Assembly (NCBI GenBank): GCA_021797635.1
Contig: JAJZZI010000120.1
Coordinates: 1 to 42,528 of the forward strand
Reading direction: 5' to 3'
Length of the DNA: 42,528 nucleotides
Source: Bacillota bacterium
GTDB taxonomy: Bacteria; Bacillota; Sulfobacillia; Sulfobacillales; Sulfobacillaceae
The notes beneath the pieces were generated by a model, which had not been told where the DNA came from, searched no databases, and saw only the letters and a list, made by a program, of their open reading frames with translations. This document shows positions 38,414-42,528 of this stretch, piece after piece. A program made the position numbers and the translations under genes. How positions within the stretch are numbered: position 1 is the stretch's first letter; the number at the start of each line of letters is the position of its first letter.

Positions 38414-40225
38414 ATGTGCGGCATTGTTGGTTATATCGGCGATCAAGATGCGTTGCCCATCTTAATGAGGGGGCTCAAGCGCTTGGAATATCGGGGATAT
38501 GACTCCGCTGGCGTGGCCTTGATAGCTTCAGGGCAGGTGGCGACGGCGAAGTCTCCGGGCAAAGTGGCGATGCTGGAGACGCGTTTGGATCTACTGCCTG
38601 CTGGGTCCCCCTGTGGCATAGCCCATACCCGTTGGGCGACGCACGGGGCGCCCACGGATGAGAACGCCCACCCGCACGTCGACTGCAGGGGCAAGATTGC
38701 CGTCGTGCATAACGGCATCGTGGAAAACTACGTAGAGCTTCGAGCGGAATTGGCCGCCAAGGGCCATCGCTTTGTCTCTGAGACCGATAGCGAAGTCATT
38801 CCGCATCTGTTAGAGGAGTATGGCGCCACGGACGACTTGCTATCCGCCGCGCGTCAAACGGAAACACGGCTGGACGGAGCCTATGCGTTTCTGGCCGTCG
38901 TTGCCGACCGGCCCGACGTGGTCGTGGCGGTGCGACGGGCGAGTCCTTTAATCATTGGTCTGGCCCATCGAGCCAACTATATTGCCTCAGATTTCAGCGC
39001 TTTTTTGGATGCAACCAATCGGGCGCTGGTGCTGGAAAACGGGGACATGGCGGCAGTCACCGCCGATGATGTGACCATTTTTGATAGCACGGGCGCCGAA
39101 ATTGAGCGAGAACCGATGACGGTTAATTGGGATGTGCGCCAAGCCGAACGAGGTGGCTACTCCCACTTTATGCTGAAGGAAATCATGGAACAGCCAGAAG
39201 CCTGGGCCGATTGCCTGTTAGGCCGGATTCAAAATCAGTCCATTGAAGTCGAGGCGATGGGGCTTCGCACGTCCGAACTCACGCGCTGGCAAAGGGTCCA
39301 AATTGTGGCAGCGGGCACGGCCTATCATGCCGGTCTGGTAGGTAAGGTCCTTTTGGAAAACTTGGCGGGCATCCCCGTGGACGTGGATGTGGCCTCAGAA
39401 TTTCGCTATCGACGCCCGCTTTTGACGCCCGACACTTTGGTGTTGGCCGTCTCTCAGTCAGGGGAAACGGCCGATACCTTAGCCTCTTTGCACCTCGCCC
39501 GGGAACGGGGGGTTTATACCTACGCCATCACGAACTCGGTGGGGTCGACGCTGGCGCGCGACGCCGATGCGGCCGGCTATACGTATGCAGGTCCTGAAAT
39601 TGCCGTGGCATCAACCAAGGCGTATACCACTCAAATCCTCATGATCAGCCTGTTAGCACTCGCCCTGGCCCAAGCGAGAAATCGTGCGAGACCAGACTTG
39701 GTGGCTCAACTGGGGCTCTTGCCGGCGCTGGGTGAAGCGTGGTTGGCTCAGTCGGACAGCGTGCGCGATTACTCGGAACTTTTAGCAGCCTCCAACCAAA
39801 TGTTTTACATTGGACGCGGAATGGATTATGCCTTGGCGATGGAAGGCCAACTCAAAATGAAAGAGATTAGCTACATTCATGCGGAAGCGTATCCTGCCGG
39901 CGAGATGAAACACGGTACTCTCGCCCTGATTACGGAAGACGTTCCGGTAGTCGCGGTCTCGACGCAACCCGATTTAGCGGTCAAACTGCGTTCTAATGTG
40001 GAAGAGGTGAAGGCCCGGGGTGCCAAGGTGTTTGCCGTCATCGATCAGTCGCAGCGTAGTGCTTGGGGCCAAGATGCCATGGCGGAGGTGCATCCTCCTT
40101 CGCCTTGGTTGTCGCCTGTCTTGGCCGCCATGCCGCTTCAGTTGCTGGCCTACTGGACGGCGGTTGCTCGCGGCGAAGACGTTGATAAGCCAAGGAACCT
40201 GGCCAAGAGTGTTACCGTGGAGTAA
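38414..40225 (+). CDS. glmS: Glutamine-fructose-6-phosphate aminotransferase
   Basis: A 603-residue enzyme making glucosamine-6-phosphate from fructose-6-phosphate and glutamine. Cys2 (MCGIVGYIG) becomes the N-terminal nucleophile of the glutaminase domain (to about 240), with THGAPTDENAHPH typical; two SIS isomerase domains follow (SQSGETADTLASL) and the C-terminus ends DKPRNLAKSVTVE. ATG 38414 is fixed by the required Cys and by AAAGGGGG. The 53-bp gap to glmM is too short for a glmS ribozyme. The 3' end of this gene is the classical Tn7 target sequence, and a Tn7-like end begins 24 bp past the stop. Confidence 0.97.
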   Translation: MCGIVGYIGDQDALPILMRGLKRLEYRGYDSAGVALIASGQVATAKSPGKVAMLETRLDLLPAGSPCGIAHTRWATHGAPTDENAHPHVDCRGKIAVVHNGIVENYVELRAELAAKGHRFVSETDSEVIPHLLEEYGATDDLLSAARQTETRLDGAYAFLAVVADRPDVVVAVRRASPLIIGLAHRANYIASDFSAFLDATNRALVLENGDMAAVTADDVTIFDSTGAEIEREPMTVNWDVRQAERGGYSHFMLKEIMEQPEAWADCLLGRIQNQSIEVEAMGLRTSELTRWQRVQIVAAGTAYHAGLVGKVLLENLAGIPVDVDVASEFRYRRPLLTPDTLVLAVSQSGETADTLASLHLARERGVYTYAITNSVGSTLARDADAAGYTYAGPEIAVASTKAYTTQILMISLLALALAQARNRARPDLVAQLGLLPALGEAWLAQSDSVRDYSELLAASNQMFYIGRGMDYALAMEGQLKMKEISYIHAEAYPAGEMKHGTLALITEDVPVVAVSTQPDLAVKLRSNVEEVKARGAKVFAVIDQSQRSAWGQDAMAEVHPPSPWLSPVLAAMPLQLLAYWTAVARGEDVDKPRNLAKSVTVE

Positions 40226-40249
40226 ATCATGATGGGCGGATGGCGGTGT
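40175..40249 (+). other. attTn7-like attachment region
   Basis: The last codons of glmS (encoding the conserved DKPRNLAKSVTVE) and 24 bp beyond the stop precede the transposon terminus. In Tn7, TnsD reads this part of glmS and directs insertion about 25 bp downstream. If the terminus is TGT at 40250, the 5-bp target duplication would be GGTGT (40245-40249); the second copy lies outside the window. Confidence 0.65.
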
Positions 40250-40250
40250 T

Positions 40251-40320
40251 GTTCAGTGACAAAAATTACGTTAACTGAACAATAATTATCTTAACTGGAC
40301 AAAAAATAGCTTGACTGTAG
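40251..40320 (+). repeat. Tandem 20-bp TnsB-site-like repeats at the transposon end
   Basis: Three direct repeats start at 40251, 40271 and 40291 with exact 20-bp periodicity; the second and third share TTAACTG-ACAA-AA and all three share ACAA-AA--A at the same phase. A fourth, degenerate start (TTGACTGTAG) is at 40311. Clustered TnsB sites at the termini are a hallmark of Tn7-like elements. Confidence 0.75.
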
Positions 40321-40332
40321 TGGGAAAACATG

Positions 40333-40375
40333 GCACAGTTGAAACAAGTGTTTTGGGTGTTTCAACTGTGCTTTT
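40333..40375 (+). terminator. Intrinsic terminator between transposon end and tnsA
   Basis: GCACAGTTGAAACA (40333-40346) pairs perfectly over 14 bp with TGTTTCAACTGTGC (40358-40371), loop 11 nt, followed by TTTTG. It lies after glmS and before tnsA, so it probably stops glmS transcription at the edge of the element. On the minus strand a TGTTTTCCC tail follows, so it may work both ways. Confidence 0.75.
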
Positions 40376-40410
40376 GTTATATGTGGTTGGTTGGAGAAAA
40401 GGAGACCTCT

Positions 40411-41244
40411 ATGGCCAAACGCAAACGCGAGAATACATCCGACACCGTTGATCGGCGTGTAAAAGAAGGCCGGGGCATCGGGCGTGGAGTGGATTATAAG
40501 CCGTGGCTTTTGGTGCAAGATGTTCCATCCCAAGGTTTGGCCAGTCGTGTCAAGGGGGTAAAAACCGGTCGGGTTCATCATCTTCTGAGTCAATTGGAAC
40601 ATCGATGTTTTTTGATTCTGGATTGGTCGGAACGGGTTACCGATATTCGCGAGCAGTATCCGCTTTTGCCGCTCGAAGAAACCTTTGCTTTAGCGGAATC
40701 TTTGGGAATCAAACATCCACGGGATCCTAAAACCCAAAATCCTATCGTGCTTACATCGGACTTTCTTATTACGGTCAAACAAGGGGATACACTCGCCGAA
40801 CAAGTTCTCAGCATCAAGCCTTCTAACGATCTAAGTAATTCACGTGTATTGGAAAAGCTCGAACTTGAGCGCCAATATTGGGAAAAACGCAAGGTTCCTT
40901 GGCATATTGTGACTGAGCAGGATCTGCCGGCAACTCTTGTCAAGAACTTGGAATGGCTCTACCCCTATCGCTTTTCTAATGTGCTGAGCCCCTTAACTGA
41001 TTCAGAGATCTATCGGGTGCGCAGGGGACTGGAGCAGGAACTTCTTAGGTGCGAACCCCTTTCCACTACCGCGAATGCCGTAGATGACCGATTGGGTCTA
41101 GAACCTGGGACAAGCCTTTCGGTGACTCGTTATCTACTCGCCACACGCACATGGCGTGTAAACTTGCTCGATCCCATCCATTTGGTAGAACCGTTGGTGT
41201 TGCTACACCATGTGGTCCCGGAATCGGAGGTGGATGTTTCGTGA
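40411..41244 (+). CDS. tnsA: Tn7-like transposase subunit TnsA (endonuclease)
   Basis: A 277-residue PD-(D/E)XK endonuclease that cuts the 5' ends of the transposon, enabling cut-and-paste movement together with TnsB. Catalytic residues appear as Glu63 (SQLEHRCF), Asp117 (LTSDFLI) and Lys136 (LSIKPS); RVTDIREQYPL is a family hallmark. The C-terminal part (about 170-277) is the helical domain that contacts TnsC in Tn7. The frame is open from ATG 40330, but that start lies in the terminator hairpin; ATG 40411 has AAAAGGAG (40397-40404) 6 nt upstream. The stop overlaps the tnsB GTG. Confidence 0.92.
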   Translation: MAKRKRENTSDTVDRRVKEGRGIGRGVDYKPWLLVQDVPSQGLASRVKGVKTGRVHHLLSQLEHRCFLILDWSERVTDIREQYPLLPLEETFALAESLGIKHPRDPKTQNPIVLTSDFLITVKQGDTLAEQVLSIKPSNDLSNSRVLEKLELERQYWEKRKVPWHIVTEQDLPATLVKNLEWLYPYRFSNVLSPLTDSEIYRVRRGLEQELLRCEPLSTTANAVDDRLGLEPGTSLSVTRYLLATRTWRVNLLDPIHLVEPLVLLHHVVPESEVDVS

Positions 41245-42528
41245 ACTGGATGGTCAACCAAGTCATCGAATGGCTGGATGAGAACGGGGATCCGGTAACG
41301 GAACGTCTGCTGTGGATTGCTCCCACCTATACCGATGCGTACCTTTTTGACCTCCGGGATCCCCAGGCGATGCCGGTTTGGCGGCGCATTCAGGATTTGG
41401 AGGGTGCCATCAATCAGGGAATAGTCCGTGTGTTATCCGTAGACCCGTATCTTATTGGTATGCGTCCGGAGGATACCCTTTCGGATAGGCAACGACGTCA
41501 ACGCGATCAAGCCTGGGGCGTGATCCAGCCGCTTGTACAACGGGACGGTGAAGAAGCTATTTTTCAGGCTAAGACCCGAGGGATCTTGATTAACGACGCG
41601 ATTGAGCGCACGGGGATCAGTAAACCCACCATCTACAATTACCTTCGTAAATATTGGCGCGGAGGGCAAACCAAGAATGCCTTGGTACCGGATTTTGATC
41701 GCCGTGGAGGCCGTGGAAAGACAAAGAGTTCAGGAGAACGCAAACGAGGACGGCCAGCGCGGCGTACACGGACCATGACAAGTGACGCGGGTATCAATGT
41801 TGATGACATGGTTCGTGAAAAATTTCGACGGGGAATCCGCTTGTTTTATGAAACAGGCAAAGAACGGTCGTTTACCGAGGCGTATCAACTCATGCTGGAG
41901 CGTTTATTTCATCAGGGATATGAACAACACGGTGAGACGCTTGTTCCTAAGTTACCGCCTGCCACGGAACTGCCGACCTTAAGGCAATTTCGCTATTGGT
42001 ACGAAAAGGAACGGGACTGGGAAACTTCCCAAAAGCGGCGTCTGGGTGAACGACGATACGCCTTAAGCCGACGGCCTATCACGGGGGATTCTACCCAGAT
42101 GGCTCAAGGTCCTGGGTCTCTATATCAGATCGATGCCACCATCGCCGACGTGTATTTGGTGAGCCGCTGGGATCGTAACCGCGTAATCGGTCGACCCGTG
42201 GTGTATATGGTGGAAGACGTTTTTAGCCGCATGATTGTCGGACTGTCGGTTGCTCTGGAAGGTCCAAGTTGGTTAGGCGCAATGTTGGCATTGGAGAATG
42301 CGGCGAGTGACAAAACGGGATTTTGCGCCCAATTTGGGATGGAGGATACCACCTGGTGGCCGGCGCAACACCTGCCGGAAGCCATCTTGGCGGACCGGGG
42401 TGAACTGGAGGGCTACAACGCCGACCAATTGGTCAATGCGTTGGCCATTCGGGTGTCTAACACTCCACCCTACCGGGGGGATCTAAAAGCCATTATCGAG
42501 CAAAACTTCCGGTTGATGAATCTCAACC
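41241..42528 (+). CDS. tnsB: Tn7-like transposase subunit TnsB (DDE transposase), truncated by window edge
   Basis: 429 codons are visible. GTG 41241 follows GGAGGTGG (41226-41233) and overlaps the tnsA TGA, so the two are coupled but not fused. N-terminal DNA-binding helices include DAIERTGISKPTIYNYLRKY (118-137); a basic linker with an AT-hook-like RGRP is at 169-172. The DDE catalytic triad is Asp298 (YQIDATIADV), Asp385 (ILADRGE) and Glu420 (AIIEQNF); the 34-residue D-to-E gap is canonical for this superfamily. It joins the transposon 3' ends to target DNA. No stop or frameshift is seen up to the edge. Confidence 0.92.
   Translation, partial: MNWMVNQVIEWLDENGDPVTERLLWIAPTYTDAYLFDLRDPQAMPVWRRIQDLEGAINQGIVRVLSVDPYLIGMRPEDTLSDRQRRQRDQAWGVIQPLVQRDGEEAIFQAKTRGILINDAIERTGISKPTIYNYLRKYWRGGQTKNALVPDFDRRGGRGKTKSSGERKRGRPARRTRTMTSDAGINVDDMVREKFRRGIRLFYETGKERSFTEAYQLMLERLFHQGYEQHGETLVPKLPPATELPTLRQFRYWYEKERDWETSQKRRLGERRYALSRRPITGDSTQMAQGPGSLYQIDATIADVYLVSRWDRNRVIGRPVVYMVEDVFSRMIVGLSVALEGPSWLGAMLALENAASDKTGFCAQFGMEDTTWWPAQHLPEAILADRGELEGYNADQLVNALAIRVSNTPPYRGDLKAIIEQNFRLMNLN

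Follow-up and report, generated by a model that had tools for sequence, protein, structure and literature searches.

The window, that is, the whole stretch of 42,528 nucleotides analysed here, very probably holds a Tn7-type transposon from its tnsA-side end onward, brought to its site 24 bp past glmS by the TnsD (attTn7) pathway. The end, tnsA, tnsB as far as the contig end, and their position are seen in the window itself; tnsC, tnsD and tnsE, like the distal end and a duplicated target, were seen only in relatives. By homology with Tn7, TnsB would bind the end repeats and would cut and join the 3' ends, TnsA would cut the 5' ends, TnsD, bound at the glmS 3' end, would activate TnsC, and 5 bp would be duplicated on insertion.

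Table 1. Features of the window, and short elements found in related genomes
Feature	Location	Strand	Description and basis
glmS	38414..40225	+	ORF; its 3' end is the attachment site
GGTGT	40245..40249	.	candidate left copy of the 5-bp target duplication; precedes the terminus; relatives have 5-bp duplications
tnsA-side end (Tn7R equivalent)	40250..40317	+	TGTTCAGTGAC terminus and three TnsB-like sites; repeats, matrix scores
Possible tns promoter	40311..40339	+	TTGACT, 17 nt, CACAGT, with TG before the second hexamer; putative, read from the sequence
Hairpin	40333..40371	+	lies between the end and tnsA; inverted repeat of 14 bp, perfect, with a T-rich tail; fold, covariation
tnsA	40411..41244	+	277 aa, intact; Pfam and structure matches, alignment
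tnsB, first 429 codons	41241..42528	+	match to Tn7 TnsB; ends at the contig end
Short element, G021	L069, 25-1454 past the glmS stop		PIN-domain gene; same gene in G009
Short element, G030 contig C28	L017:1350-2493		Phd/YefM with ParE-like
Short element, G014	L064		MazE-like antitoxin

The stop codon of glmS occupies 40223-40225 and is separated by 24 bp from the terminus TGTTCAGTGAC, which begins at 40250. The repeat array, beginning at TGTTCAGTGACAAAAATTA, 24 bp past glmS, consists of three 20-bp direct repeats (40258-40317), with TnsB-like sites at 40259, 40279 and 40299, spaced by exactly 20 bp. When the whole 42.5-kb window was scanned with a scoring matrix built solely from repeats of other genomes, these were its three best sites (22.0, 18.9 and 16.2; the next scored 11.5). 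Two of the features by which the Tn7 family is recognized, a TGT-terminated end with multiple TnsB-like sites and a TnsA endonuclease accompanied by a TnsB DDE transposase, are present. The end adjacent to glmS is the tnsA-side end, called Tn7R in Tn7 nomenclature. The C-terminus of GlmS, NLAKSVTVE, is kept in all 23 family members compared. A second copy of GGTGT, which would complete the candidate target duplication, was absent from the assembly of the source genome (G000).

Translation of tnsA starts with the ATG at 40411, preceded by AAAGGAGA, and its product matches PF08722 (1.3e-19), PF08721 (1.6e-13) and the Tn7 TnsA of solved structure (1.2e-50). The start codon of tnsB is the GTG at 41241, so that the gene overlaps the stop of tnsA, and its frame is open up to the contig end; the product matches Tn7 TnsB (7pik) at 1.2e-68. 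Thus, the sequence-only reading, according to which a TGT terminus, repeats and tnsA-tnsB follow glmS after 24 bp, was borne out, all these elements having been located. It had also stated that all catalytic residues are intact. This stood for the DDE triad of TnsB (D298, D385 and E420) and for TnsA residues E63, D117 and K136, which align with E63, D114 and K132 of Tn7 TnsA; for TnsA as a whole it is not strictly right, because the position equivalent to Q130 is Ser134. We take E63, D114, Q130 and K132 to be the active-site residues of Tn7 TnsA. Serine at the Q130 position was found also in G017 and G006, the two aligned relatives with a complete operon.

The position just past glmS, occupied in the window, is occupied at the same distance in 13 other genomes. 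Of 23 genomes examined downstream of glmS, 14 show a Tn7-type end or its scar 20-25 bp from the stop (G000, G003, G009, G011, G012, G014, G015, G017, G018, G021, G026, G029, G030 and G031); neither was found in the other nine. This recurrence bears on the idea of an assembly or binning chimera, in which a foreign tns contig was joined to glmS. The source genome is indeed split into 241 contigs, and the element stops at a contig end; however, the junction recurs in those 13 genomes, as far from glmS as here, and the assemblies of G017 and G018 comprise only 2-3 contigs, so that a chimera is scarcely conceivable. The shared junction and the target duplications of relatives also agree with the earlier proposal of a Tn7-like element at the glmS site in Tn7 orientation.

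In the family, tnsB is present in 6 of 34 genomes, and three relatives, G017, G019 (Sulfobacillus thermotolerans Kr1) and G006 (a MAG), carry tnsA-B-C-D and a TnsE-like fifth gene. Their TnsC matches PF05621 (TniB) and PF13401 (AAA), and TnsD of relatives matches PF15978 at 290 bits and TniQ (PF06527) at 91 bits. The product of the fifth gene reached 18.8 bits with Pfam TnsE_C, under the cut-off of 26.7, and in tblastn showed 22.7% identity over 91% to an annotated TnsE of Exiguobacterium (3e-10); a search of the TnsE profile against solved structures gave no match. According to a survey, TnsE is restricted to Tn7 relatives and Tn6022 (PMC10293859). With their TnsE-like protein, the relatives would have a further route, leading into conjugative plasmids.

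Both ends of the element could be located in three relatives, the distal ends of G017 and G019 being found with a distal-end matrix. The G017 element, at glmS, has both ends, 38,440 bp apart, flanked by ATGGT and CTGGT, which agree at four of five bases; in G019 the ends lie 31,537 bp apart, with TTTTG duplicated exactly on both sides; the element at glmS in G009, joined from two contigs overlapping by 141 identical bases, measures 5,375 bp, with GGATT as an exact duplicate. All three have close-set sites at the tnsA-side end and spaced sites at the other. At the G019 end, one 20-bp TnsB-like site is lost relative to G017 (L012:7654). Two of the related complete elements sit away from glmS, which speaks against the TnsD-glmS reading. 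The complete operon of G006 follows a transporter gene and a glycolytic gene cluster (L014:9277). The element of G019 lies in a plasmid-like region, where the Tn7 of S. thermotolerans Kr1 (ORFs BXT84_00850-00865) was noted previously (PMC6803676), and the glmS site of this genome is empty; such a location would suit the TnsE route.

A separate problem is the possibility that the element is RNA-guided (CAST), with cas genes past the contig edge. The best plasmid match of the window's TnsB is cyanobacterial (53%), and cyanobacteria are a phylum rich in CASTs. Moreover, some type I-B CASTs also home to glmS (PMC10293859). On the other hand, the three relatives with complete operons have a long TnsD and a TnsE-like gene directly after tnsC, with no second short TniQ, and none of ten G017 cargo proteins scanned matched a Cas protein; we regard a CAST as highly improbable. 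The cargo of G017 includes a copper-type ATPase, a cupredoxin-like protein, a two-component system, a cation-efflux protein and insertion sequences. Hence the expectation that CRISPR effector genes or a defence island lie beyond the edge found no support, as the complete operons of relatives have TnsD, a TnsE-like gene and metal cargo, with no cas in the proteins tested. Defence cargo was also sought in G017 with PADLOC, which returned no more than weak matches to parts of domains (mad1, mad2 and SduA), judged generic. The window element is a genuine but ordinary Tn7-family transposon, and its relatives place it in a protein-guided lineage, no cas gene having been seen in the parts tested.

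The window copy itself may or may not be complete. Since the window is the complete contig C156 of the source genome (3.06 Mb, 241 contigs), tnsB is cut by the assembly itself. In the source genome, 95.85% complete, tnsC was not found, nor were tnsD (with TnsD from G017 as the query), tnsE and the distal end known from relatives; a Pfam search of it for TniQ gave no match, the search control being uninformative. The suggestion that the element may be active is not upheld by these absences, nor by the deletion of most relatives' copies at glmS. We give even chances to an internally deleted, non-autonomous remnant that has kept the end, tnsA and at least part of tnsB but has lost tnsC-D-E; this would still be a Tn7-type insertion, but a dead one. 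The genes missing from so complete a genome and the deleted or broken glmS copies of G030, G031 and G009 favour it, and the nearest tnsB (G030, 94%) itself belongs to a deleted remnant. However, the frames of tnsA and of tnsB, as far as it is visible, are fully open, dN/dS between G000 and G030 is about 0.08, and no other contig of the source genome has the same last bases as C156, which fits a continuation missing from the bin. The window copy may thus be a remnant or have an intact, unbinned continuation.

Decay at this site is common. All resolved copies at glmS are deleted or decayed, except that of G017. In G030, tnsB codon 458 is joined to about codon 495 of tnsD and tnsA is frameshifted; in G031 a deletion runs from tnsA to tnsD codon 86; in G009, tnsB has a frameshift and tnsC is reduced to its first ~104 codons; in G026 about 29 bp of the end gives way to the sequence that element-free relatives have behind glmS. 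Just past glmS, G003 (L066), G012 (L067) and G026 (L070) keep scars of the tnsA-side end, a few dozen bp long, the remainder being deleted. Directly after the distal end of G017 lies another, decayed end, and on contig C28 of G030 there are two distal ends, with a further end 5 bp after each; these tandem ends indicate that insertion beside an older copy has occurred. As relatives show, this Tn7 lineage has settled next to glmS repeatedly, and most of its copies there have since decayed. In G021, G014 and G030, short elements that have both ends but lack an intact tns gene carry toxin-antitoxin-type genes; possibly, these are kept by addiction.

Movement between hosts could be traced in tnsB. 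Between G000 and G030 its product is 94.4% identical (dS 0.33, dN 0.026), and glmS is 64% identical, with dS saturated. TnsB is far more alike than glmS between two genera, and therefore horizontal transfer is indicated; these values suggest that the element moved between genera long after the host split, and that TnsB was under purifying selection for much of that time. The window's TnsB is 76% identical to that of S. thermotolerans Kr1.

The hairpin preceding tnsA has a folding energy of -24.1 kcal/mol (z -5.4). Among 11 distinct copies, pairing is preserved in 94.2% of pair cells, four positions show paired changes, and its covariation score was reached by 0 of 500 shuffles, a control that gives no probability, as the copies are related. 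It was not listed by the terminator scan, its 11-nt loop exceeding the limit of 8. The possible promoter scores under the threshold of the promoter scan; its first hexamer falls within the third TnsB-like site, and transcription from it would plausibly start inside the hairpin. It is conceivable, if rather doubtful, that the hairpin insulates the tns operon from glmS read-through: RNA coming from outside would fold it into a terminator, RNA starting inside it at the operon's own promoter would not, and a -35 hexamer within a TnsB site would lead to self-repression. The insertion sequences IS10 and IS50 shield their transposase genes, and the proposed insulation would resemble this.

These results place the source genome in a Tn7 lineage in which the complete relatives bear copper and cation-efflux genes, and they show glmS to be a repeatedly used, mostly decayed landing site in the acid-loving, metal-leaching family Sulfobacillaceae. 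Their use is in annotation and in indicating where mobile metal resistance may be sought; they disclose no new mechanism.

Among known systems, type I-B CASTs share TnsD-type homing to glmS (PMC10293859) but differ in that no cas genes or second TniQ were found in relatives of the window element. Another known system is Tn7 of Escherichia coli. There the genes run tnsABCDE, the end lies ~25 bp past glmS, TnsB sites are clustered at one end and spaced at the other, and 5 bp are duplicated. The window has the tnsA-tnsB order with an overlap, to which relatives add tnsC-D-E, and a tnsA-side end with clustered TnsB-like sites adjoining glmS about 25 bp past the stop; the spaced sites of the other end and the 5-bp duplication are found in relatives. 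The differences are the moderate sequence similarity, the serine at the Q130 position of the window TnsA and the relatives' TnsE falling under the Pfam cut-off; the conserved hairpin before tnsA in the window lineage may be another. The Tn7 of S. thermotolerans Kr1 belongs to the same lineage as the window element and has all five tns genes, but it resides in a plasmid-like region rather than at glmS.
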